DNA of 60,590 nucleotides from Clostridia bacterium (GTDB taxonomy: Bacteria > Bacillota > Clostridia > Oscillospirales > Acutalibacteraceae), in NCBI GenBank assembly GCA_017416345.1, contig JAFQCR010000005.1, forward strand, positions 1 to 60,590, read 5' to 3'. The position numbers were made by a program, and so were the translations under genes. Each line of letters starts with the position of its first letter. Positions within the stretch are counted from its first letter, which is position 1. Positions 1 to 16,759 of this stretch are shown here, one piece after another. The notes under the pieces are model-generated. The model saw only the letters and a list, made by a program, of their open reading frames with translations, was not told the origin of the DNA and did no database searches.

Positions 1-43
1 AACGGTAATCGGCGTCGGTTATAAAATGGAGGGCAAGAAATGA
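1..43 (+). CDS. OmpR/PhoB-family response regulator, C-terminal end (partial)
   Basis: Only the last 13 codons and the stop lie in the window. They read TVIGVGYKMEGKK, which matches the closing beta-hairpin of the OmpR/PhoB winged-helix DNA-binding domain (usually T-V-x-G-x-G-Y). The stop TGA overlaps the ATG of the following histidine kinase (ATGA), the normal arrangement for a two-component pair. The receiver domain is off the window. Confidence 0.8.
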   Translation, partial: TVIGVGYKMEGKK

Positions 44-1686
44 CCAAGAAAATCTTTCGCTCCATTATAACTGTTGCAATGGTTGTGCTAGTGTCTTGTA
101 TTTTTATCGCAAGCAGCTTTCTGTATGATTATTTTAATAAATCACAGGTAACACAGCTCAAAGAGGAACTTTCCCTTGTTGCTACCAACGTAGATAAAGT
201 AGGCTCAGAGTATTTTGATAACTTTGATTCTTCTGTGTTCCGCTTTACCTTAGTATCCGCTGACGGCTCGGTACTCTATGATTCACAGGCAAAAGCCGAG
301 GATATGGAAAATCACCTTGAGCGTGAAGAAATTGCCGAAGCTCTTGAAAACGGAAATGGCAGCAGTGCTCGTTACTCCTCTACATTAACAGAGAGAACTT
401 TTTATGAGGCAACCCGCCTTCAAAACGGCAATGTGCTTCGTATCTCGATAAGTCAGGTAACGGTAGGTGCATTGATCCTTGGTATGCTTCCTGCCATTGT
501 TGCTATCATCTTGATTTCTGCTGTTGTGGCTCTCGTGCTATCGCACAAAATGGCAAAGAGCATAGTCAAACCGCTGAATCAACTTGACCTTGAAAATCCT
601 GCAGAAAACGAAACCTATGAAGAACTTGCTCCTATTCTTACGAAACTCAACAAACAGCACAAGCAGATCACAAGGCAGATGCAAGAACTGCGACAGAAGT
701 CCGACGAGTTCGAGCAGATAACCGCTTCTATGAACGAGGGGCTTGTTCTGCTTGATAAAAAGGGCGTGGTGCTCAGTATCAATGCCGCCGCTAAAAAGCT
801 GTTTTCGGCAGACGAAACGGCAGTCGGTCGTGATTTTCTCACCCTTGACCGTAGTATCGATATGAGCCGTGCCATCGAAAAGGCACTTAACGGCAAGAGA
901 GCTGAGTTTCGTGAGGAAAGAAACGGAAGCGAGTATCAGTTCGTCATTAATCGCACCGAGTCGGACGGCAAGACGGTAGGCATTGTTATTCTTTGTTTTG
1001 ACGTAACCGAAACAGCGTTTGCAGAGCGTAACCGTAAGGAATTTACCGCCAACGTTTCACACGAACTGAAAACACCGCTTCAATCCATTATCGGTAGCGC
1101 CGAGCTTCTCGAAAATGGTCTTGTAAAGCCGGAGGATACAAAGCGTTTTGTCGGTAATATCAAAAACGAAGCCACAAGACTAGTTTCTCTTATTAACGAT
1201 ATTATTCGTCTTTCTCAGCTTGATGAGGACAGCGAGCCTGTCACCGAGTCGGTTGACCTCTACGATGTGGCAAACGAGGTTATCGAGGTGTTGACGGTTT
1301 CGGCGGCGAAAAAACAAGTTGAGATTCATCTTAACGGAGAGTCCTGCGTGATGAATGGTATCCGCAGATACCTTTATGAAATTATCTATAATCTTTGTGA
1401 CAACGCTATCCGCTATAATAAGGACGGCGGCAAGGTTACGATTGATCTCAAAAACGCAGGAGACAATATCATCCTTTCGGTCAGCGATACCGGTATTGGT
1501 ATTCCTGCCGAGCATCAGAGCCGTATCTTTGAACGCTTCTACCGTGTGGATAAGAGCCATTCCAAAGAAACCGGCGGCACGGGTCTTGGACTTTCCATCG
1601 TAAAGCACGCCGTGGCCTATCACGGCGGCAAGGTTACACTTGATAGCAAAGTTGGAGAAGGTACGACAATAACGGTTGAATTTTAG
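40..1686 (+). CDS. PhoR-like sensor histidine kinase
   Basis: This 548-residue membrane kinase should sense an envelope signal and phosphorylate the regulator whose end overlaps its start. A first membrane segment lies at about residues 7-27, followed by an extracellular region of about 120 residues and a second membrane segment near 145-168. A PAS-like domain covers about 225-325. The HisKA box FTANVSHELKTPLQ carries the phosphoacceptor His341. The HATPase domain shows an N box (NLCDNAIRYN), a G1 box (SDTGIGIP) and GTGLGLSIVK. Domain order is that of PhoR/WalK-type kinases, and the signal is unknown. The gene ends in a clear terminator, so the pair is a separate transcription unit from the AT-rich genes that follow. 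Confidence 0.93.
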   Translation: MTKKIFRSIITVAMVVLVSCIFIASSFLYDYFNKSQVTQLKEELSLVATNVDKVGSEYFDNFDSSVFRFTLVSADGSVLYDSQAKAEDMENHLEREEIAEALENGNGSSARYSSTLTERTFYEATRLQNGNVLRISISQVTVGALILGMLPAIVAIILISAVVALVLSHKMAKSIVKPLNQLDLENPAENETYEELAPILTKLNKQHKQITRQMQELRQKSDEFEQITASMNEGLVLLDKKGVVLSINAAAKKLFSADETAVGRDFLTLDRSIDMSRAIEKALNGKRAEFREERNGSEYQFVINRTESDGKTVGIVILCFDVTETAFAERNRKEFTANVSHELKTPLQSIIGSAELLENGLVKPEDTKRFVGNIKNEATRLVSLINDIIRLSQLDEDSEPVTESVDLYDVANEVIEVLTVSAAKKQVEIHLNGESCVMNGIRRYLYEIIYNLCDNAIRYNKDGGKVTIDLKNAGDNIILSVSDTGIGIPAEHQSRIFERFYRVDKSHSKETGGTGLGLSIVKHAVAYHGGKVTLDSKVGEGTTITVEF

Positions 1687-1827: not shown

Positions 1828-3555
1828 ATGAAGATAAAATCAATAAGCGTTGTGAACTATAGAAATATTGATGGAAACTCAATGGTTCTTCACCCTGAAA
1901 GCAATTATCTTATCGGAGAGAACAATCTTGGAAAAAGTAATTTTTTGTTTCTTTTAGATACGGTCTGCAATGGCAAAGCATTTGATGAAAAGGACTTTAA
2001 AAATCCTGATATGCCAATCGAAGTTGTTTTAGAACTTCAACTTTTACCTAATGAATTGGGATTTTTTGGCGATAACTTTTCTCCAGAGGATCCCACAACA
2101 ATCAAATTGCGCTATACACAAAAAATTGATGAAAGTTATGCAACGTGTGTTAGTTGTGATACGGGCGAAAGCATTCAAACCAAACAACTTAAAAAAATCC
2201 ATTATATAAAATATGACACCAACGCTTTGCCAAGCAAGGAATTGCGCATAGATACCCAAAAGGGTGCCGGATTATTAGTTGGAAATATCATTGATAGGTA
2301 TGTTGAAGAAAATGCAGAGGAGGAATCCTTTCTAAACTCTGAGAGAATAGAAAACTTGACAGAACATATTAATGAACGCTTAAATAAAATCAAAAGTTTT
2401 AAAGATTATTCAATCAAAGCTACGGTTGCCCCTACCCCTAATGAAATGCTTTCAAAGTTATTTTTCCTTTCGGATGGTGAACGCAAAATTGAATCCACCG
2501 GAAGTGGTGTGCAGTTTATTGCTATGGCCACAATAAATGTTTTGTGCCAAATAATGAACATATATAAAAGCAAATCTGTCAATTTCGAGGAACATCTATA
2601 TACCGATGATAATGGTAAAAAGATTTTACCTATTATTCTTTCTGTAGATGAGCCAGAAGTTCACCTTCACCCATTTCTACAAAGATCATTAATTAGATAT
2701 TACAAGCGAATTTTGCAGAATATAGATAATGATTTCATTGAACTACTAAGAATGTGCTTTGGTATAGATGGTCTTGACGGGCAATTGGTTATTGTTACAC
2801 ATTCTACAGATGCGTTAGTTGGTGATTATCGAAACCTTGTTCGTTTTTATCAAGATAACAATGCGACGAAAATAATCAGTGGAGTTTCTTTGAATATAAT
2901 AGACGAAAACGAAAAGCACCTACTTATGCATTTCCCAGAAATCAAAGAGGCTTTTTACGCAAAATGCGTAATTTTAATCGAGGGACAGACTGAATATGGT
3001 TGTATACCTTCGTTTTCAGAAACACTTGATATTTCTTTAGATGATTTAGGTATTAGTGTTATTAATGCTGGCGGCGAAGGCACAATTAAACCATTAAAAT
3101 ATCTACTTAATGCATTTTCAATTCCAAGTATTGCAATTTATGATGGAGATGTTAAAGCAGGTAAAACGCCTGCGCCGGACGAGTTCTTTACAAATGAATT
3201 ATGTTTTGAAATAGAAGTTGTTAAGCACCTTTATAATCTGGGACAAACTTCCGTTATAAAACAGATAGTTCAAGAATTAGATTCGGATGCTGAAAATGAT
3301 ATTTTAAGTAAAGACTATGTTAAAAAGCCTTTAACGAAAATGGGCATTGATATCTCAACATATACTCCCAAAAAATTATCAGATATATCAATTGACGATG
3401 CAAATGAATTTTGCAATATGTATTCTGCTTGGTATATGAAGAAAAAAGGTATTTTGTTGGGACGTTTAATAGGTGATACGTTGACGAAAGAGCAAATACC
3501 ACCTTGCTATGTCGATGCAATTAAAAAGGCCGAGGAGGTAGCGAAGAATGCCTAA
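1828..3555 (+). CDS. gajA: Gabija defence protein GajA (OLD-family ATPase/TOPRIM nuclease)
   Basis: A 575-residue class 2 OLD-type protein. The N-terminal ABC-type ATPase shows Walker A GENNLGKS (30-37), a signature-like segment LSDGERKIESTGSG, Walker B ILSVDEPEVHLHP and an H-loop VIVTHSTD. A C-terminal TOPRIM domain follows, with the acidic residue in LIEGQTEYG and an acidic pair in AIYDGDVKAG. In Gabija the TOPRIM nicks DNA and the ATPase controls it. Length agrees with described GajA proteins (about 580). The ATG at 1828 is preferred over the TTG at 1819, which sits only two bases from the TAGGAG ribosome site. The stop overlaps the next ATG by 8 bases, and the partner is a UvrD-like helicase, the pairing that defines Gabija. 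Base composition is clearly more AT-rich than the flanking housekeeping genes, suggesting transfer. Confidence 0.85.
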   Translation: MKIKSISVVNYRNIDGNSMVLHPESNYLIGENNLGKSNFLFLLDTVCNGKAFDEKDFKNPDMPIEVVLELQLLPNELGFFGDNFSPEDPTTIKLRYTQKIDESYATCVSCDTGESIQTKQLKKIHYIKYDTNALPSKELRIDTQKGAGLLVGNIIDRYVEENAEEESFLNSERIENLTEHINERLNKIKSFKDYSIKATVAPTPNEMLSKLFFLSDGERKIESTGSGVQFIAMATINVLCQIMNIYKSKSVNFEEHLYTDDNGKKILPIILSVDEPEVHLHPFLQRSLIRYYKRILQNIDNDFIELLRMCFGIDGLDGQLVIVTHSTDALVGDYRNLVRFYQDNNATKIISGVSLNIIDENEKHLLMHFPEIKEAFYAKCVILIEGQTEYGCIPSFSETLDISLDDLGISVINAGGEGTIKPLKYLLNAFSIPSIAIYDGDVKAGKTPAPDEFFTNELCFEIEVVKHLYNLGQTSVIKQIVQELDSDAENDILSKDYVKKPLTKMGIDISTYTPKKLSDISIDDANEFCNMYSAWYMKKKGILLGRLIGDTLTKEQIPPCYVDAIKKAEEVAKNA

Positions 3556-5359
3556 CATTGATGCCTTAAAGGAATTGCTTTCGCATCAACATGAAGGGGA
3601 TGAAAAACAACTAGAAGTTATATTTTCGGAAGCCCAAAGGGTAATAGTTGAAGCTCCTGCTGGATATGGAAAAACGACTACGATGATTAGTCGTATAGCA
3701 TATTTGTTTGCAGTCGGTAGCATCCCAAACCCTAAACAAATTTTAGGCTTGACATTTAGTGTTAACGCTGCATTAAAAGTTAAGCGAGAAATTTCCGAGA
3801 AACTACCAGCCTTAATAAATGCAAAAAACAATCCCACTATAATAAATGAGAAAGCAACAGTAACAAATTACCATGGTTTTTGCAAAATGGTTTTAAAGAA
3901 ATATGGCTATTTATTATTTGATGCCTTGCGAAAAGATATTAATACATTCAAAGCAATTGGTGATAACGAAATTTCGAAATATCCAGATATTGCTTGTTTG
4001 TTGACGCAAGAAGATTTTCAAGTAACGGTGCGAGTGGAACAACAGATTAAAGAAGGTCATTTCCCCACAAAAGAAGACTTGCACCTTTACAATCAAATTA
4101 TTTCTAAAAACTTGTTGCCAATGGGTTTTATTACCCATAATGCTGTTATACTTTTTACGATTGACTTATTTGCAAAGTTCCCCAAAATCAAAATATTTTA
4201 CCAACATTATTATCCGTTGATTATTGTTGACGAATTTCAGGATACGAATAGCATTGCTTGGGAATTACTTAAACAATTAATATCCGATGAGACCCAATTG
4301 TTGTTTTTGGGCGATCCGTTACAACGAATCTACGGGTTTATCGGCGCTCTACCCAATATTATGAGCGTTGCAGCAGAACAATATAATATGACTCCTATAA
4401 CGCTTAATCAAAATTATCGATTTCGTTATAATCAAGATATGCTTAAACTTGATGCAAACATCAGGGCGAACGCTCAAAGCGAATTTGCATATGTCGAAGA
4501 AGAAAACGTTGCTAACCTTTCTGCTTTTTGGGGACAAAACCAGGAAGACGAAGCAAATCAAATTGTAGATAAAATTGAATGTTTATTAAATTCGGAACCT
4601 ACTACAAAAATTGCAATTTTATGTAGGGGTAGAAATCCAAATTCCAGTGTTATCGAAACTGCTTTAAACGATAAGGGTATTAACTATTTTTACGGTATGT
4701 TTACCGATGAGGATCCTGACTACATTGATTTTCACATAAAATGTCAAGACTTGTTTATATCCAAATTTGGCAAAAGAAAAAGCATAAGTAAACAGTCGTT
4801 GATATCCTTCGCAGAAAGTGTTTCTAATGCATACGATACAAGTTCAGACAAAACAATAAATTCACTTATATGCCTGTTGAAAGCGTTAATCGAAAAAATG
4901 TCTATTGATTATGCTACGATTTCTCCAGAAGATAAATATGCCTTATTGATAGATATTTTTGAAAATAGACAGTTAAAACAAGCGATGGAGTACATTGATA
5001 CTAATATTATAATTACAACTATACACGGTGCCAAGGGATTAGAATGGCAGTATGTTTTTTTGCCAGACACAGAAAGGTGGATATTTCCAAGTTATCATAC
5101 GTGCAACAATTGTGTAAGTAAGTATTCTTCGTTGAAAGGTTGCAAATGTGTTTTATCAACACCTATCGACGCTAATACAAAAATGTTGCTTCTTGATGAA
5201 TTGTCCGTATTTTATGTTGGTGTTACGAGAGCAAGAAAACAAGTTTATGTTTCAGCGAGCGCGTATAGGTATAACGCTTCTAACGAATTGAAATCCAGTG
5301 GTTTTTCTTGTATGGTTGGCATGAGTGGTATAAAACTCATTAATGCTAAAGTTGATTAA
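3548..5359 (+). CDS. gajB: Gabija defence protein GajB (UvrD/Rep-like SF1 helicase)
   Basis: A 603-residue superfamily 1 helicase with the full motif set: motif I APAGYGKTTT (36-45), motif II IIVDEFQDTNS, motif III LLFLGDPLQRIYGF, motif IV LNQNYRF, motif V TTIHGAKGLEWQYVFLP and motif VI FYVGVTRARKQVYV. The UvrD Q-box is weak and replaced by GDEKQLEVIF. Near the C terminus, between motifs V and VI, is a cysteine cluster CNNCVSKYSSLKGCKC that could bind zinc. The start overlaps gajA by 8 bases, so translation is coupled. It is about 100 residues longer than the first described GajB. In the Gabija complex GajB is thought to sense DNA ends and activate GajA. Confidence 0.85.
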   Translation: MPNIDALKELLSHQHEGDEKQLEVIFSEAQRVIVEAPAGYGKTTTMISRIAYLFAVGSIPNPKQILGLTFSVNAALKVKREISEKLPALINAKNNPTIINEKATVTNYHGFCKMVLKKYGYLLFDALRKDINTFKAIGDNEISKYPDIACLLTQEDFQVTVRVEQQIKEGHFPTKEDLHLYNQIISKNLLPMGFITHNAVILFTIDLFAKFPKIKIFYQHYYPLIIVDEFQDTNSIAWELLKQLISDETQLLFLGDPLQRIYGFIGALPNIMSVAAEQYNMTPITLNQNYRFRYNQDMLKLDANIRANAQSEFAYVEEENVANLSAFWGQNQEDEANQIVDKIECLLNSEPTTKIAILCRGRNPNSSVIETALNDKGINYFYGMFTDEDPDYIDFHIKCQDLFISKFGKRKSISKQSLISFAESVSNAYDTSSDKTINSLICLLKALIEKMSIDYATISPEDKYALLIDIFENRQLKQAMEYIDTNIIITTIHGAKGLEWQYVFLPDTERWIFPSYHTCNNCVSKYSSLKGCKCVLSTPIDANTKMLLLDELSVFYVGVTRARKQVYVSASAYRYNASNELKSSGFSCMVGMSGIKLINAKVD

Positions 5360-5533
5360 TGTAGATCAAGTATTGAAATTGTTATGCTAATGATGTATAA
5401 TATCTTCGTTGAAGTGACAACACAGTGACAACAAAAATCTTGATAGTCCGTATTTTACGGATAATCTGAACACTCCCGATAATATGAGTAAAAATACCCA
5501 TACAAAATTGTTTAAGTTACGGTTTTCGGGAGC

Positions 5534-5547
5534 GAGTGGGAATAATA
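5534..5547 (+). repeat. GAGTGGGAATAATA direct repeat, copy 1 (possible attachment core)
   Basis: The 14 bases are identical to 7984-7997, and the first 12 recur at 12730-12741. GAGTGGGAATAA is also how the last codons of guaA (E-W-E-stop) are commonly written, and the guaA 3' end is a known integration hotspot. Its role as a crossover site here is inference. Confidence 0.6.
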
Positions 5548-5616
5548 ACACTCTCCCAAAACCGCATAAATAAAGGGTTTTGAGAAACCAAAAATATTGT
5601 GTGACTACACTTTTTC

Positions 5617-5646
5617 AATGCCCTGCTGTAATAAGCGGGGCATTTT
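5617..5646 (+). terminator. Terminator downstream of gajB
   Basis: AATGCCCTGCT, a six-base loop and AGCGGGGCATT followed by TTT form a hairpin. It separates the Gabija operon from the next pair. Confidence 0.7.
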
Positions 5647-5737
5647 GCTTAAATTTATTTTGCAAACACGTAGCTTAGATGTTTATAAAGAGTCAAATAA
5701 ATAATTTATTATACCACATAAACCGAGGAGGTAATAA

Positions 5738-6529
5738 ATGAAAGAAAACAAGATAATATTATCAACAAAAGCTTCTTATGATTCACCTAAAGAAATAACA
5801 AAAGAGCAATTAGACTCGATTAAGTCTGTGCTTAATTCATTAGCGATTGCTATGGCAAAATTGTATGACCCTCAAATACTAATTGAACGCATAGGCGATG
5901 CTCTTTCTAATATTGTTGAAGCATTAAAGGAAATATACGGAGATGGCATTAAAGGATATGAGAAGTGGGGGGAATACGGTTGGACTTTTTCTCCGTCGGT
6001 AGAGTATGACTTTTTTAAAAATGCACCAACATCTGTTGAAGAAGCAAATGGAATAATGGAAGAATATTTAAATAATGACGAGATAAAAAGCATAAAAAAT
6101 GCTTTACAAATCGCTGGTGTTGATACATATGAATTAGAAGAAGCGTTTAGTTGTTATAGTCAAGGAATGTATAAGTCGTGTTCTTTGATTTTGTTTGGAT
6201 TAATTGATAACAAAATATATAGTTATGGGCTACTCAATAATAAAAAGGACAGAGTGAAATTGGGCTCAAGTTTTGCAAAAGATTATGTTAATAAGAAAAA
6301 GTATGACGAACTCACTTTACAGGGCGCTTTTATAAATATTCTAAAAGGAATTGAAACGATTTTTGGTGATGGTGATAATTTCACAAAACCTATGACTGCT
6401 ATCAACAGGAATTATCTGACTCACGGAATGTCAAAACGAAATATTTCAATGTTAGAGTGTTTTCAAGTATGGTGCTTAGCATACAGTGTGTGGGTGATGC
6501 TTGATGTTATTGAAAAAATAGTTATGTAA
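5738..6529 (+). CDS. Unrecognised protein with a C-terminal HEPN RxxxxH motif
   Basis: A 263-residue, AT-rich gene with a strong ribosome site (GAGGAGGT, 6 bases before ATG). I do not recognise the family. The C-terminal half is helical and contains CYSQGMYKSCSLILFGLI followed about 70 residues later by NRNYLTHGM, where R224 and H229 form the R-x4-H signature of HEPN ribonucleases and HEPN toxins; a hydrophobic helix closes the protein. The N-terminal half is rich in Lys and Glu without a recognisable domain. It precedes a likely nuclease gene by 57 bases and follows Gabija, so a defence or abortive-infection role is likely but is inferred from motif and context only. No signal peptide or membrane segment is seen. 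Confidence 0.6.
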   Translation: MKENKIILSTKASYDSPKEITKEQLDSIKSVLNSLAIAMAKLYDPQILIERIGDALSNIVEALKEIYGDGIKGYEKWGEYGWTFSPSVEYDFFKNAPTSVEEANGIMEEYLNNDEIKSIKNALQIAGVDTYELEEAFSCYSQGMYKSCSLILFGLIDNKIYSYGLLNNKKDRVKLGSSFAKDYVNKKKYDELTLQGAFINILKGIETIFGDGDNFTKPMTAINRNYLTHGMSKRNISMLECFQVWCLAYSVWVMLDVIEKIVM

Positions 6530-6586
6530 AACCTTTTGTACTCAAGGGGTTTTTACGCATAAAAAGTTGTATAGGAGTATTGTGAT

Positions 6587-7873
6587 ATGGAAGTAATAAA
6601 AAAAGAAATTCAAGACTTATACAACAAAGTGGTATTCGAATATGAAAAACACTTGATTGGATTTAACTATGAGATATTCAAAATGAATGATTTTGAAAGA
6701 GTGTATCTGGTTGAAGATGATTTTGCCATATATCTTGGTATAATGAATTTTTCACCAAGCAAAAAATATATATGGGATACTATTGTTTTTGAAGAATTAT
6801 TGGAAAATTCAATTTTCAAGTTTAACTATACTGCATTTTGTAAAAAGTTTTCAAAAAGTGGCACAGATATACGATGGATGTATTATAAGAGATTTCATGG
6901 AATATGGAATGAGCCAATACGGCGTGAAGATGAATCTCGTGTGCAAATGGAAAAGTATAGTACAGGCGAAGATATAAGTTATTTTGTCGAGAGTAAAGCT
7001 AATTATATCCTTAATGCTTTGCCAAAACTGAATTTAAAACAACGATTTGATAATTGGGAAGGATATTTATATCATTTTATAATCTACGAGTTAAGTGATG
7101 GAACAAGGACTGGACATTCAATATATTCAACTAAAAACCCAAACATTCACAAAACAGCATTGGAAAAAGCAAATGACATTGAGTTTTCTGCTATGTCATA
7201 TTTTTATCACAAATATATTGTTAAACTCGAATTTCTTGATAGTACTGAAGATTACCAAAAAACAACTGACATAATGATGGAACTGATGTGCGACAGGATA
7301 AAAGTGTATAAAGAGAACGGTTGGAAACATAAAAAAGAAAAAGGAAACACTTCAAAACATTGTATAGCCGAAAAAGACCTAAAATACTTCTGGATATCTA
7401 AATATGTAAAGAACACCAGTAGAGCAGGATTGATAGAAATAGAACGCAACATACTATCAGAAGTATATAATGGCAAATATAGTGAATTGCCTCGTTATGA
7501 GTATTTAATCCCTAAGAACAAATGGAAGTCCGAGCAATTAGTTTATGAATATGCTTGTAATTTATACAAAAAAAGCAATGTAATATATCAACATAGACCA
7601 TTTTTCTTACGAAGCGAACAAGGTCAAATGTCATACGATGTGTTTATCACGAAACTTAATGTAGCTATCGAATATCAGGGAAAACAACATTTTGAAGCTG
7701 TAGAGATTTTCGGCGGTCAAGAGCATTTTGAAAAACAAGTTGAACGAGATAAATTAAAAAAAGAGCTTAGCGAAAAGAACGGTGTTAAACTGGTATACAT
7801 AAACTACGATGAAGATATTTCAACGGATTTAATCAAAGAAAAAGTTGAAAGGGCATTACAAGAGAGGATATAA
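6587..7873 (+). CDS. Unrecognised protein with a C-terminal PD-(D/E)XK/Vsr-like nuclease domain
   Basis: A 428-residue gene with a TAGGAG ribosome site. The last 80 residues look like an endonuclease-fold domain: Asp351 in MSYDVFI, then Glu362-Tyr-Gln-Gly-Lys366 in NVAIEYQGKQH, a His/Phe-rich stretch (FGGQEHFEKQ) and a closing strand VKLVYINYDED. This D...E-x-x-x-K pattern with G-K-Q-H is typical of Vsr-like and restriction-like nucleases. The first 340 residues have many aromatic and charged positions and no family I can name, so they may supply specificity. It probably forms an operon with the HEPN gene 57 bases upstream; a weak hairpin (6528-6554) lies between. AT-richness matches the Gabija genes. 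Confidence 0.6.
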   Translation: MEVIKKEIQDLYNKVVFEYEKHLIGFNYEIFKMNDFERVYLVEDDFAIYLGIMNFSPSKKYIWDTIVFEELLENSIFKFNYTAFCKKFSKSGTDIRWMYYKRFHGIWNEPIRREDESRVQMEKYSTGEDISYFVESKANYILNALPKLNLKQRFDNWEGYLYHFIIYELSDGTRTGHSIYSTKNPNIHKTALEKANDIEFSAMSYFYHKYIVKLEFLDSTEDYQKTTDIMMELMCDRIKVYKENGWKHKKEKGNTSKHCIAEKDLKYFWISKYVKNTSRAGLIEIERNILSEVYNGKYSELPRYEYLIPKNKWKSEQLVYEYACNLYKKSNVIYQHRPFFLRSEQGQMSYDVFITKLNVAIEYQGKQHFEAVEIFGGQEHFEKQVERDKLKKELSEKNGVKLVYINYDEDISTDLIKEKVERALQERI

Positions 7874-7983
7874 TGACTGCACATTTCTTGTAGACTCTGT
7901 AGATGGCACAGATTTATGAGTCAAAAAGGCACAAAACAGTGCCGAAAATACCCAAAATCACGGTGTTTACACTACGGTCAAAA

Positions 7984-8134
7984 GAGTGGGAATAATATCG
8001 GCTGTCCGAGGACAATCTTGTGTATTCTCAAAAGAACAAAACCAAATTATCCTCTTTCATCTTTTTTCAAATACAACAAATGCCTTTCCGCATTTAGCGG
8101 AAGGGCATTATTTTTTCTATAATTCTTCCCACTC
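7984..8134. repeat. ~150-bp repeat element with inverted ends, copy A
   Basis: This copy starts with GAGTGGGAATAATA and ends with TTCCCACTC, so its ends are inverted. Inside are CGAGGACAATCTTGTGTA (identical in copy B at 12730-12878), CAAAAGAACA, a hairpin ATGCCTTTCCGC...GCGGAAGGGCAT and TTTTCTATAATTCT. The two copies align along their whole length in the same orientation and flank the 8.1-12.7 kb cassette. It could be a small non-autonomous element or part of an attachment site; no recombinase is in the window. Confidence 0.75.
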
Positions 8135-8216
8135 AATAGTGCCGACCGGCTTGGGGGTGAGAATACTTGTTTTACTTGATTCTACTAGGGCTTTCTTATG
8201 TTTTACCAATGCCTAA
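8117..8216 (-). pseudogene. Gene 3'-end remnant resembling the guaA C terminus
   Basis: Reading the minus strand, an open frame without a start ends PKPVGTIEWEEL-stop at 8117. GMP synthases usually end S-K-P-P-G/A-T-I-E-W-E, so nine residues match almost perfectly, while the residues before them do not resemble GuaA. The stop is followed by a hairpin that could be its terminator. The best reading is a leftover or donated guaA 3' end at an integration junction. It could instead be the tail of an unrelated gene. Confidence 0.45.
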
Positions 8217-8243
8217 TTTGTTGTATTGCTGATAGATTTATTA

Positions 8244-9422
8244 TTAAAGTTCTGCTTTTTGAAGGTCAATGCCGTTCTGATAGTCCAGTACAAACTGAAC
8301 CAAGGTCTTTGCGCCGATCTCCATAGCGTCCTCATCCATCATAAAGTCCCCGTAATGGACCTTGCTGACAATTCCCTTTTCTTTGTTGCCCACGCCCAGA
8401 CGGAATATAACCGCCGGGATTACCTGTCCGAACAGAGAAAAGTCCTCAGAGTCGTATCTGCGAGAGCCGATCTTCACATTTTCCGCACCAACCACTTTTT
8501 CTGCGGAGCGATGCATCAGCTCTGTTATGTATGGATTGTTATAAACGCAGGCAGATTTCAGCGGTCCGTGAACGGTAATGGTTGCGCCGGTCTCCTCTGC
8601 CAGACACTTGCCGATCTTCTCAATTCTTTCGATGAGAAAACGGCTCACATCCAGATCGAAGGTGCGGATCGTGCCCTTCATCACCGCCTGAGCTGCCACC
8701 ACATTATGGGTAGTGCCGGCTTCCAGCTTGTTGACGGAGCAAACGATATTATCCTTGGGATTTACTTCCCGCATTGCAACCAGCTGGATCGCGTTATACA
8801 TACGCATCGCAATTGCCAAAGCATCGATGCCTGTATGGGGTGCGGCTGCGTGGGCGCTCTTTCCGGTGATCTCAATGGTAAAATGCCGGCTGCAGGCGTT
8901 GACATAACCGTAAGTAACTTCTATTTTGCCAAGCTCCTGCCCCGGAGCTACGTGCTGGGCAATGATCACATCGATCTCGTCCGCAATCCCGTTGCTGACC
9001 ATCATTGCCGCACCGCTCTTCATTCCCTCCTCACTGGGCTGGAACACCAGCAGCACCCGGCAACCCAGGGTGCTCTCCATTTCCTTAAGTACCTTTGCCG
9101 CGCCCAAAAGCATTGCTGTGTGGGCATCGTGACCGCAGGCGTGCATTTTGCCTTCGATCCGGGATTTATAAGGAATGTCGTTGATCTCATCCATATTCAG
9201 GGCATCTGTATCTGCCCGGATGCCAATGGTAAAGTCCTTACGATCCGGGTTAATGTAGCCTACTACACTTCCCTGCCCGTACTGCTCGGTGTAGGGAATG
9301 TCCATTTTTTCCAGCTCCCGCTTAATAAGGGCGGTGGTTCTGGGCAGATCAAAATCCGTCTCCGGGTACATATGCAGCTCCCGGCGGATGCTTATAACAT
9401 ACTCACTGTCAATTTGAAACAT
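8244..9422 (-). CDS. M20D-family amidohydrolase (N-acyl amino acid/aminoacyl hydrolase)
   Basis: A 392-residue cytoplasmic metallo-amidohydrolase of the hippurate/N-acyl-amino acid hydrolase type. Metal-binding segments are visible: IGIRADTDALNM (66-77), MHACGHDAHTAM (93-104, with Cys96 and His98), QPSEEGMKSG with the catalytic Glu pair at 131-132, QHVAPG, and a final His in KVHYGDF. Substrates of the family are N-acylated amino acids or small peptides; the exact one is unknown. A GAGGAG ribosome site precedes the ATG. It lies 17 bases after a lipoprotein gene on the same strand and is probably cotranscribed with it. No signal peptide is present. Confidence 0.9.
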   Translation of the reverse strand: MFQIDSEYVISIRRELHMYPETDFDLPRTTALIKRELEKMDIPYTEQYGQGSVVGYINPDRKDFTIGIRADTDALNMDEINDIPYKSRIEGKMHACGHDAHTAMLLGAAKVLKEMESTLGCRVLLVFQPSEEGMKSGAAMMVSNGIADEIDVIIAQHVAPGQELGKIEVTYGYVNACSRHFTIEITGKSAHAAAPHTGIDALAIAMRMYNAIQLVAMREVNPKDNIVCSVNKLEAGTTHNVVAAQAVMKGTIRTFDLDVSRFLIERIEKIGKCLAEETGATITVHGPLKSACVYNNPYITELMHRSAEKVVGAENVKIGSRRYDSEDFSLFGQVIPAVIFRLGVGNKEKGIVSKVHYGDFMMDEDAMEIGAKTLVQFVLDYQNGIDLQKAEL

Positions 9423-9439
9423 TGTTCTCTCCTCAAAGT

Positions 9440-10726
9440 TTATACTGTAAAATCAAAATCCCGGGCGGTGACTTCCTGTCCGTTTGTTAACAGGCACACC
9501 ACAGTGCAGTGGTAATTACCTGCCTCAAGCGCATCCAAGTCCAGAGAGCCGATCATAGTAGAAGGCAGATCTGTGACAAAGCGCTCCATTACGAAGTCCT
9601 TCATAGAGTACCGATCGGTTCTTGCGGTGATCTTCTGAACCTCTGCGCCGGTCTCATCGGTAATGGTCAGGGTAATCCGATCGTACATCCAGTTGCAGGA
9701 AATGGTGCCTGCCAAAAGGGTATCCTTATTAAATTCTGTTTCTGTGTCTGTGATAGTGGGTTCCGCGGGTGTGTAGGATGCATCCTGCAGTTCCTTAATG
9801 GTAACCGGTATGTACCCTTGCGATACAGCCATACTGAATGTATATGCGGTATCTACTCGGTAAATGGGGTATACTTTATCATTGATCTCATCATCCAAAG
9901 CCTGTGCTCGCATTAGATTTCTTGTTTGCTCCAGCATATGAAAACGGCTTTTTGTCGGATTGACAGAGCCATCTTCATTATAGAAAACCTCAACATCCGT
10001 CACCAGACAGGAATGGTCGCCTTTGCTGACTCGAATAACGGCATCACCCTTTTGAAGCTGGGCGTAACTTTCATACATCTTTTCTTTGCCGTTTTTTGCA
10101 ATGACTTCCAAAGTATTGCTCAATTTTTCCCCTTCGACTTCCAGTTTATAGTCGCCTACAGGGAGTATACCGTATTGGGGGTACATTTGCGTATTGCCGG
10201 TAGCTGTAACCGTATCGCTGACCTGGCTCCAAGCCAGCATAACGGCACTACTGCAGGCGTTTCCGATCCGGGCATTTTTATATTCATTCCAAGCCAGCAC
10301 TTCTCCGCCGCCGCTAAGGGCATCAGCCTGCAAACCTGAAATCGTGTAAACACCATTTTCATCCGGCTCACCGGCAAATTCCAAAAAAGAATCTGTTGTG
10401 CTGGCAGCAAAGGAATAGGGCAAGCCCTGATAAATTCTGCCGGCTTTGATATGGAGAGTTCCGGAGCTAACCCGAAGCGTATAGGTAATATCCACATCGG
10501 ATTTCCAACGCACCGTTGCCATATCCCGCATATACTGCTCCACGGTGTCCCGGCGCTCAGCCAGGATCTTCTCCTCGGGGGTCAGTTCTTTTTCCGTAGG
10601 CTCGGTTGCCTGGGTGGTTTGCTGGGTCTGCTGGGTGGTTTCTGCAGGATTCTCTCCGCAGCCCATCAGCCCCAAAAGAAGCAACACAGCCAGCAGGAAA
10701 GAAAGAATACGGGTCATCTTTTTCAT
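9440..10726 (-). CDS. Lipoprotein with an NlpC/P60-like cysteine-peptidase domain
   Basis: A 428-residue secreted lipoprotein. The signal sequence ends in a lipobox LGLMGC with the lipidated Cys23, followed by a Gln/Thr-rich linker. From about residue 75 the pattern suggests a papain-like NlpC/P60 or amidase fold: GRIYQGLPYS, then Cys158 in GNACSSAVMLAW, then His238 in KGDHSCLVTDV, spaced as a Cys-His dyad. The C-terminal 120 residues (after PAEPTITD) look like a beta-sandwich. It may cleave cell-wall peptides, with the M20D hydrolase downstream acting on released products; that link is inferred. It is divergent from the AraC-type regulator at 10849. Confidence 0.7.
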   Translation of the reverse strand: MKKMTRILSFLLAVLLLLGLMGCGENPAETTQQTQQTTQATEPTEKELTPEEKILAERRDTVEQYMRDMATVRWKSDVDITYTLRVSSGTLHIKAGRIYQGLPYSFAASTTDSFLEFAGEPDENGVYTISGLQADALSGGGEVLAWNEYKNARIGNACSSAVMLAWSQVSDTVTATGNTQMYPQYGILPVGDYKLEVEGEKLSNTLEVIAKNGKEKMYESYAQLQKGDAVIRVSKGDHSCLVTDVEVFYNEDGSVNPTKSRFHMLEQTRNLMRAQALDDEINDKVYPIYRVDTAYTFSMAVSQGYIPVTIKELQDASYTPAEPTITDTETEFNKDTLLAGTISCNWMYDRITLTITDETGAEVQKITARTDRYSMKDFVMERFVTDLPSTMIGSLDLDALEAGNYHCTVVCLLTNGQEVTARDFDFTV

Positions 10727-10787
10727 TTGATAACACTCCCATCTATGTTTTCCTCACAATTATATCATACAGAAACCGAATTGCACA

Positions 10788-10816
10788 TTGACAATCCTTG
10801 GTTTTTTATGTATAAT
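10788..10816 (+). promoter_or_regulatory. Consensus sigma-A promoter of the AraC-type gene
   Basis: TTGACA (10788-10793), a 17-base spacer and TATAAT (10811-10816) match the consensus perfectly, 32 bases before the chosen ATG. Confidence 0.9.
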
Positions 10817-10848
10817 CCTGCTATAATTCATAAAGAGGTGTTGTGCCT

Positions 10849-11712
10849 ATGTATCCAACATACCAAAAACTTCGCTATACCACCGGCTATGGAGTGCGGC
10901 TCAATCACACAATGGGCAATTCCGCTGAAGCGTCCACATTGCGTTTTCCCCACTATTCTACGGAATTTATGCTTTATTATTTTATTCACGGGACCGGAAA
11001 TATCAAGATTGAGGGCAGAAACTATGATATCCAGGCAGGAGATATGGTCCTGCTGGGCCCTACCGAAATGTTTCACTGCACCATAGACAGCAGCATATAC
11101 CACGAGCGTTATGTGCTGCACATTGACAATTCGGTTATCCTGGGTTTTCCTGACAACTGCCAGAACTTGTTGAACGTCTTCTACTGCCGGCAAAAGGGCT
11201 ACGGAAACCACATTTGTGCGCAAACAGTTGCAGCAAACGGACTGGACACTCTGGTGCAAAGTATCCATACCCATATTCAGGGCAAGGAGCCTGTAAATAC
11301 GGCTATGGTGATTTGTAAAACAGTGGAGCTTTTGGTGCAGATCAACACATTGCTGGCAGACCCTTCTGCAATCACACAGTCACCGGCTTATGAAAATAAG
11401 CTCATCCACAATGTCCTTCTTTTTCTCAATGCCCATTATAAGGAGGACATCAGCATTTCCAGCATTGCAGAAGCTTTTCACGTGGACAAATCCTACCTGT
11501 CCCATCTGTTTAAGGACAATGTGGGCACATCTGTTTGGAATTATGTGATCTTCCTTCGCATTAACCATTTCAACAATCTGATTACCCAAAATCATCCCAT
11601 AGAGGAAGCCTGCCACCAGGCAGGGTTTCAGAATTACTCCAATTTCTACCGGCTGTATAAAAAGCATATGGCAATCACACCGCAGCAATTTAAGCAGCGG
11701 CACAAGCCATAA
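10849..11712 (+). CDS. AraC-family transcriptional regulator
   Basis: A 287-residue regulator with an N-terminal cupin-like ligand domain (YFIHGTGNIKIEGRNYDI, GDMVLLGPTEMFH) and a C-terminal double helix-turn-helix (SISSIAEAFHVDKSYLSHLF, then EEACHQAGFQNYSNFYRLYK) ending in the usual ITPQQFKQRH. The ATG at 10849 is chosen over a GTG at 10843 because the AGAGG ribosome site would be only two bases from the GTG. It faces the lipoprotein/M20D operon and probably controls it, which is a common arrangement but not demonstrated. Confidence 0.9.
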   Translation: MYPTYQKLRYTTGYGVRLNHTMGNSAEASTLRFPHYSTEFMLYYFIHGTGNIKIEGRNYDIQAGDMVLLGPTEMFHCTIDSSIYHERYVLHIDNSVILGFPDNCQNLLNVFYCRQKGYGNHICAQTVAANGLDTLVQSIHTHIQGKEPVNTAMVICKTVELLVQINTLLADPSAITQSPAYENKLIHNVLLFLNAHYKEDISISSIAEAFHVDKSYLSHLFKDNVGTSVWNYVIFLRINHFNNLITQNHPIEEACHQAGFQNYSNFYRLYKKHMAITPQQFKQRHKP

Positions 11713-11772
11713 GCCAATGTCATCGGCTTAAGTAAAGAAACGCATTTTTCCAAGATGTATGAAAGCAATTTT

Positions 11773-11810
11773 GGGAGGTGGCTCAAGCGCTGAGCCACCT
11801 CCCTCATTTT
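11773..11810 (+). terminator. Terminator after the AraC gene
   Basis: A perfect 13-bp stem (GGGAGGTGGCTCA / TGAGCCACCTCCC) with a five-base loop is followed by TCATTTT. Confidence 0.8.
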
Positions 11811-11828
11811 ATCAAATTTCTGTTTGAC

Positions 11829-11852
11829 ATGCCTTCCCCCAGGGGAAGGCAT
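11829..11852. repeat. Short perfect inverted repeat
   Basis: ATGCCTTCCCC and GGGGAAGGCAT are separated by two bases. Similar CT-rich/AG-rich hairpins occur in the intergenic repeats near 58.7 and 59.4 kb, so it is probably one of this genome's small intergenic repeats. Confidence 0.5.
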
Positions 11853-11950
11853 TTGCCCCATAAGCAGAAATTTGTCGGTTTGGTAAGAATGTTTGAACAG
11901 TATTAGCAATATTAAACACAGTTTTCGCAATAGACAGTGAAATTTAAGAT

Positions 11951-12166
11951 GTGTTACAACATAAAATAATGCACATAAGAAATTCCTGGAACCACATCTT
12001 TAATTACTATTGTTTTGCCAGAACCGGCGAGCTGTACTATATGAGCCGCAATTTCGACAGCTCCTACTGGAACGACCCCGGTTACGGAATTATGCTCCCA
12101 ATGGATAATAAAAAGCTGGCAGATTTCGTACCGGATCATTGGTATCGATTCGAACCGGTCTGTTAA
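11951..12166 (+). pseudogene. Probable 3' fragment of an unrecognised gene
   Basis: An open frame of about 71 codons has host-like codon use (GAACGACCCCGGTTACGG region) and aromatic-rich content (GELYYMSRNFDSSYWNDPG, DHWYRFEPVC), but no ribosome site and no promoter. It looks like the C-terminal part of a protein whose 5' end has been lost. I cannot name the family. It lies directly before a disrupted yitT, in a region full of remnants. Confidence 0.35.
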
Positions 12167-12201
12167 GATATGCACAAGTTTTTTACAGTGAGGTTTTTAT
12201 A

Positions 12202-12723
12202 ATGAAGGGGCTCAAAAAAATATTAAGCTATCTGGCAATCGGCGTGATCGCCTTTCTTGCTGCACTCAATTATGTGCTGTTTGTTTTTCCCAACCAATTT
12301 GCACCTGCGGGAATTGACGGAATTTGCACAATGATCCAGGAGTTGCTCCATATCAATATGGGCTACCTGTCACTTCTTATAAATTTACCGCTTATTGTTG
12401 TTGCATTTGTGGTTTTGAACCGTGAATTTGCCCTGAAAAGCACCATTTTTATCCTTGCATTTTCAGCATCAGTGGTCTGTCTGGAAGCATTAGACCTTTC
12501 GAAATTTTACTATTTAACAAGCACCGGAACAAGCATCGTTCTGGCACCGGTAGCAGCAGGTACATTAAGAGGACTTTTATATGTTGTCACCTTAAATCTG
12601 AACGGTTCAGCCGGAGGTATCGACATTATATCTGCACTCATCAAGCGCCCCATTTGGAGCTGATGAACATCATATTTATGATCAATATCCTAATTGCAAT
12701 CAGTTCTTACTTTGTCTGTTGGC
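12202..12723 (+). pseudogene. yitT: YitT-family membrane protein, frameshifted and truncated
   Basis: The frame from ATG 12202 encodes the first ~150 residues of a YitT/DUF161 membrane protein: several hydrophobic segments, the family motif FVFPNQFAPAGIDGI and GSAGGIDIISALI. Intact members have about 280 residues. The frame stops at 12663, but a +1 shift near 12650 continues it as PHLELMNIIFMINILIA, the expected next membrane segment, until the repeat element at 12730. Beyond that element, 12880-12925 again reads like membrane-protein sequence (IVFFCFSSF). The gene therefore carries a frameshift and probably an insertion. The ribosome site GTGAGG precedes ATG 12202. Confidence 0.7.
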
Positions 12724-12729
12724 ACCATC

Positions 12730-12878
12730 GAGTGGGAATAAGAAACGATGTTCGAGGACAATCTTGTGTACCCACAAAAGAACACACCAAACTATCTTCT
12801 CACAATCTATTTTTAAACAAACAAATGCCTTTTTGCGGTTAGCAAAAGGGCATTTGGTTTTCTATAATTCTCCCACTA
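12730..12878. repeat. ~150-bp repeat element with inverted ends, copy B
   Basis: Homologous over its full length to copy A at 7984-8134: GAGTGGGAATAA start, CGAGGACAATCTTGTGTA core, CAAAAGAACA, a hairpin ATGCCTTTTTGC...GCAAAAGGGCAT, then TTTTCTATAATTCT and an inverted end TCCCACTA. It interrupts the yitT remnant, which suggests the element itself moves or marks a recombination site. Confidence 0.75.
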
Positions 12879-13261
12879 GATGGATCGCATATAGTTTTCT
12901 TCTGCTTTTCAAGCTTTGTGCAATAACGGTTGCGGAGTGATTCTCGGTGTGTGGAACTTTGGTTGCGCACACTTTTTTATAAAATTTTTAAAAGTATCGT
13001 AATTTTCGCAAAAAAATCCGTCTTATATGTGGAATCCGAAAAAATGCGAAATCGGAGCAGCGCAAGGAACATTACTGTGTAAAGTTCCTTGTACACAGCA
13101 TCTACACAGTCCCAAAACATTCATATATAATAAAACTGCGATTGGCGAGTATGCCAATGATGGTCTGGCAACATTTTATTGAACACGCCAACAGTAAAGT
13201 TACGTAGATCAAAGCGATTGCAAGTAGTGCACACGCTTTTTTGTTTTTAGGAGGAATAAAA
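12879..13261. other. Upstream region of the collagen-like gene
   Basis: The first ~50 bases may be the continuation of yitT. The remainder is AT-rich non-coding sequence with a hairpin (AAGGAAC 13064-13070 / GTTCCTT 13084-13090) that competes with a second dyad (CTGTGT / ACACAG), and a TATAAT at 13126 that may be the -10 of the next gene, with only a weak -35. About 125 bases of leader would result. Confidence 0.4.

Positions 13262-16759
<3,498 letters not shown>

Follow-up and report, generated by a model that had tools for sequence, protein, structure and literature searches.

Two reports describe the 3' end of guaA as an integration site of IMEs and ICEs, together with the idea of the CIME (PMC5704250, PMC4701971). 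A third report describes S. suis IMEs in guaA as well as methylases carried on IMEs (PMC12479173). Bearing on the two proteins discussed below, a survey ties the HEPN superfamily to restriction-modification (R-M) systems and includes MTES_1575, a protein in which a HEPN and a Vsr domain are fused (PMC3710099).

The window, by which we mean the whole stretch of 60,590 nucleotides analyzed, contains near its left end an ordinary Gabija pair recognized by PADLOC, consisting of GajA (1828..3555, + strand, PDLC00085, E 9.5e-203, with a start at 1819 TTG or 1828 ATG) and the helicase GajB (3548..5359, + strand, PDLC00107, E 2.4e-207). The left neighbor of this pair is a sensor histidine kinase gene (40..1686, + strand), named by eye as PhoR type. 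Two further open reading frames follow on the + strand with a gap of 57 bases, encoding protein 1 (5738-6529, 263 aa) and protein 2 (6587-7873, 428 aa), neither of which matches a Gabija model; the island is all they share with GajAB. The first-pass annotation had described them as an AT-rich two-gene defense unit directly after a Gabija operon. The genes, their spacing, the Gabija operon and the residues named in that annotation (R224/H229 in protein 1, D351/E362/K366 in protein 2) are as described. Between 2001 and 8000 the G+C content of 500-base bins stays within 0.29-0.35; elsewhere it is mostly 0.45-0.55. Further along, at 13241-16759, lies a gene whose product of 1172 aa has long GDKGDKG repeats resembling collagen. 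We believe that the segment 5548-7997 is probably an integrase-less, CIME-like cassette, placed in tandem behind a Gabija cassette and carrying two independent accessory defense genes.

The 14-bp sequence GAGTGGGAATAATA is found in exact copies at 5534 and 7984. The boundary repeats reported earlier are thus real at both ends of the module, but they are not private to it: with up to 2 mismatches the window has 4 matches against 0.37 expected (0/100 shuffles reach 4), the extra copies being at 12730 (+ strand, 1 mismatch) and 8134-8121 (- strand, 2 mismatches). This core is the 3' end of guaA, as in guaA-directed CIMEs and IMEs. The guaA gene of the same genome, located near the edge of another contig, has its ..PKPVGTIEWE end at GAGTGGGAATAATA, and the guaA genes of relatives end in these bases too. 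One copy (5534..5547, + strand) lies at the junction of the two cassettes, and the exact repeat at 7984..7997 (+ strand) would be the right boundary of the second. Beyond it come a flank with a terminator-like hairpin (7998..8133, + strand) and an inverted guaA 3'-end remnant (..PKPVGTIEWE, 8122..8161, - strand), which has 90% identity across 40 bases with the guaA end of the same genome. The stretch 7984-8133, from the guaA core to the inverted core-like sequence, is duplicated at 12730-12877 as a 150-bp repeat of 80% identity. At another locus (L197), a core precedes a flank that resembles this repeat by eye, inverted core included. A second guaA 3' fragment, unlike the genome's own guaA end in sequence, was seen at the ends of two loci (L134 and L135) of genome G002 and is likely a trace of element exchange.

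The sequence on either side of the cores was scored against 24 different 60-base pre-core stretches, not all arm-like, together with 8 post-core stretches chosen by a rough upstream guaA-tail test, with 300 mononucleotide shuffles of each stretch as the null. The 60 bases preceding 5534 gave z 26 and belong to a right arm of the guaA-element family (5389..5533, + strand) that ends the Gabija cassette. On the other side, the left arm of the second cassette (5548..5620, + strand) is like the post-guaA sequence of relatives; the 100 bases 5546-5645 gave z 5.7, with 0/300 shuffles as good, in a pool of 8 of which two (from L201) were misassigned. The right end of the second cassette (7945..7983, + strand) is divergent, and the 60 bases preceding 7984 (7924-7983) showed a weak similarity of only z 3.2, equaled by 4/300 shuffles. 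Because of these scores the left junction at 5534 is solid and the right junction at 7984 is probable. The remaining scores were z 1.6 for 7996-8095, z -0.8 for 12670-12729 and z -0.2 for 12742-12841; as the copy at 12730 has no preceding arm, a further segment from 7984 to 12730 is doubtful. The Gabija cassette showed no left core downstream of the phoR-like gene. The weak arm at 7984 and the repetition of 7984-8133 at 12730 would fit chance copies or a REP-like intergenic repeat that delimits no mobile segment. We find this explanation hardly credible, as the core is identical to the guaA 3' end and the 5534 arm recurs in relatives, where integrase-bearing elements end in the same arm.

A stretch of about 160 bases that terminates at the 5534 core has matches (E <= 1e-6) in 25 of 135 genera and in 32 genomes out of the 398 of the family, the genome itself included. 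The matches range from near full length at 87-95% identity down to pieces of 36-57 bases, and the best one in another genus has 99% identity over 122 bases. We compared 30 stretches taken from 29 genomes among the 31 others with the arm (G361 was left out), in addition to G003, with open reading frames labeled by phmmer with the proteins of a single element, L183. In L183 and L187 the order is guaA, Xre (reverse), integrase, MobC, RepA-like, Mob, cargo and arm; L191 has the same set minus the RepA-like label. Each of these three, the fullest elements, shows the exact 12-base core at a single end, which speaks against the proposed cassette: in L183 the core follows guaA, and in L187 and L191 it marks the right end. 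The L183 integrase contains Phage_integrase and Arm-DNA-bind_4 domains, and its mobilization protein a Mob_Pre domain. Other stretches hold cargo without these genes. Exact 12-base cores enclose 9 segments on both sides in the 30 stretches, in locus L133 and in the window's first 14 kb; 7 of the 9, including 5534-7984, have no relative of the L183 integrase, in a search with L183 proteins that an unrelated integrase would escape. By the same search, the genes for integration and transfer that sister elements keep are missing in 5534-7984.

In the congener locus L133, which has 92% identity to positions 1-1682 of the window, a different cassette comes next: behind the phoR-like gene the arm is found again (92%), and another gene, of 203 aa and without a Pfam match, stands where the window has Gabija. 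The locus of the window shares with guaA CIMEs and IMEs the core, the tandem accretion and the presence in sisters of integrase and mobilization genes that are absent here. It differs in that its segments lie behind a phoR-like gene and not behind an intact guaA, that defense genes are the cargo, and that mobility is predicted. A tandem guaA-core array was also noticed in L201 (genome G148, 2045-15057): a type II methylase and a Gabija of a different subtype come first, an integrase-bearing element second and a two-gene cassette third.

From the cargo of the element family, 10 proteins picked by eye as defense-like were scanned, a chosen sample and not a rate, and 9 of them have PADLOC matches. 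These are, in L201, a type II methylase as well as GajA and GajB of a different subtype, HsdM, HsdS and HsdR in L204, a type II methylase and a restriction enzyme in L191, and an AriA-like ATPase in L196; a SIR2-like protein (by eye) of L183 had no PADLOC match. Some guaA cassettes have no recognized defense gene, and their cargo appeared by eye to be BlaI/BlaR-like or VTC/CotH-like.

Protein 1 contains the motif N223-R224-x4-H229-G230. The R-x4-H motif of the HEPN type claimed for it is present, but the fold was not confirmed. Against Pfam no family rose above the cut-off (AMP_deaminase, E 0.0051, stayed below it), PADLOC and NCBIfam gave no match and none of the profile searches listed a HEPN family, although distant families could be missed by such searches; PHROG returned one weak match to a family of unknown function (E 0.023). 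The structure model, built from a 4-row alignment, is helical with a pLDDT of 42.5 and failed, so we infer the HEPN fold from the motif. N223, R224, H229 and G230 are invariant in 10/10 aligned sequences, protein 1 included, a conservation that is partly circular because three of the ten (L206-L208) were found through the R-x4-H motif itself; searches with a profile or with the whole protein gave the others. The motif was also read in L212 and L213, with N replaced by S in L213. Relatives are rare: apart from protein 1 itself, 60 closely related genomes yielded 0, 398 family genomes 3, 398 phylum genomes 4, 117 order genomes 0 and 118 class genomes 2, in draws that overlap and with thresholds that differ. 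A further 3 are on viral contigs.

The neighborhoods of these relatives are varied. In L206 (5101-13738) a type I R-M operon is arranged as hsdM, hsdS, protein 1 relative, KAP-family NTPase and hsdR, the relative and the NTPase gene being additions between hsdS and hsdR. In L143 an MmeI-type enzyme lies 27 bases upstream of the relative, in L139 the relative adjoins a Macro gene and is 1.4 kb from SIR2, and in L141/L205 it has a guaA core on either side and follows an integrase-bearing element. In L145 (genome G728, 4821-9425) a tyrosine recombinase, integron-integrase-like by eye, is about 3 kb away from the relative, which may be a gene cassette. Protein 1 shares with the HEPN toxins of R-M and abortive-infection systems the R-x4-H motif near the C terminus, with a polar N or H following the R, and, in two relatives, a location in or beside R-M genes. 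Unlike those toxins it has no Pfam family above the cut-off and no PADLOC match, and the likeness is one of motif.

For protein 2, the structural model supports the assignment of the C-terminal region (about 310-428) to the Vsr/EDxHD-type nuclease domains. This predicted domain superposes on E. coli Vsr and I-Bth0305I, the latter among the top structural matches. The PD-(D/E)XK-like or Vsr-like nuclease proposed earlier is borne out in the Vsr-type fold of the model but not in the canonical D...(D/E)-x-K spacing, as E362-Y-Q364 occurs in 18/18 rows, K366 stands four residues after E362, and K366 itself is R in 1/18 rows. Invariant in 18/18 rows are E316, D351, E362, H368 and D388, of which we take E316, D351, H368 and D388 to be the conserved E, D, H, D catalytic set of the Vsr/EDxHD motif. 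Unlike Vsr/EDxHD nucleases, protein 2 has an extra N-terminal region of about 300 residues without a clear match, and a search against PDB sequences gave no meaningful match to the protein.

Protein 2 may be selfish, as its C-terminal domain is common in phages and some of its relatives are named homing endonucleases. In such a case it would be a homing-type endonuclease of the EDxHD family without a defense role, and protein 1 an unrelated passenger. The C-terminal domain matches phage families labeled HNH, homing or intron-encoded nuclease and 299 of the 50,697 phage records, none of them extending over 80% of the query, and I-Bth0305I is itself among the structural matches. Among the 50 BFVD matches listed, 3 are named homing endonuclease, but 13 are named restriction enzyme or endonuclease. 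A Pfam scan of protein 2 found no NUMOD domain, one relative adjoins an EcoRI-type methylase, and the element family of this gene often carries defense genes. Weighing both sides, we regard a selfish protein 2 as unlikely, and a cassette with two accessory defense genes is preferred.

Whether these two genes act together is a separate question. The first-pass annotation had suggested a paired RNA/DNA-targeting unit, and a co-occurrence survey had been set beforehand as its test. The two genes do not travel together in the other genomes sampled, and the two families were never seen adjacent elsewhere in the loci examined. None of 66 loci other than our own with a protein 2 relative above 100 bits has a protein 1 relative; these loci are not all independent (a single gene is seen in L059, L123 and L142, and the prophages L014-L018 and L055 are almost the same), some match mainly in the C-terminal domain, and L037, L040, L041 and L062 end close to the gene. 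Conversely, a protein 2 relative above 100 bits was found in 0/12 distinct non-own protein 1 loci (G293, G123, G259, G449, G798, G728, G486, G908, G943, L206, L207 and L208); L207 has a weak match of 42 bits more than 5 kb from the protein 1 relative. Across two 398-genome draws from the family, with E limits of 1e-3 and 1e-10, each protein had relatives in 3 other genomes, with no genome in common.

A terminator-like hairpin with a U-rich 3' arm separates the genes (6526..6556, + strand, -11.6 kcal/mol, z -3.7, 0/200 shuffles), which a stricter terminator scan did not list, and another hairpin lies upstream of the protein 1 gene (5617..5644, + strand, fold of 5595-5660, z -4.2). A new two-protein defense system, recently assembled here, in which a HEPN RNase and a Vsr DNase act jointly, would agree with the co-directional genes, with their short gap, with a core-bounded segment that holds only two genes of at least 80 aa, and with the described fusion MTES_1575 (PMC3710099). 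That protein, compared by description only, is a large fusion with transglutaminase and wHTH, whereas here there are two separate short proteins. Given the absence of the partner from the 66 and the 12 loci and the hairpin between the genes, a joint system is improbable. The two genes are most likely independent passengers and not one two-part system.

For the preferred cassette, we propose that the segment 5548-7997, in tandem behind the Gabija cassette, belongs to a family of guaA-directed integrative mobilizable elements; its movement would need an integrase in trans. Protein 1 would be a metal-independent HEPN-type RNase that cuts RNA on sensing infection, after which the cell stalls or dies; with two relatives in or beside R-M genes, an RNase of this type might be a back-up where restriction fails. 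Protein 2 would be a DNA endonuclease of the Vsr/EDxHD fold whose N-terminal 300 or so residues select the target. A far-reaching version, which we consider quite improbable, is that, in this bacterial family, guaA-directed elements line up integrase-less defense cassettes in tandem as a site-specific "defense rack", that the proteins represent a new R-M-coupled HEPN RNase family and a new stand-alone Vsr-like restriction nuclease with its own recognition domain, and that they are joined here as a pair attacking RNA and DNA.

The cassette type itself is already known, and both protein families are without a curated name in the libraries searched. What had been a vague defense unit bounded by repeats can now be tested as a mobile cassette whose attachment core has a name, and its two putative nuclease families are worth testing individually. 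The arm of about 160 bases preceding the guaA core is usable as a probe for mobile cargo, defense genes included, across a bacterial family.
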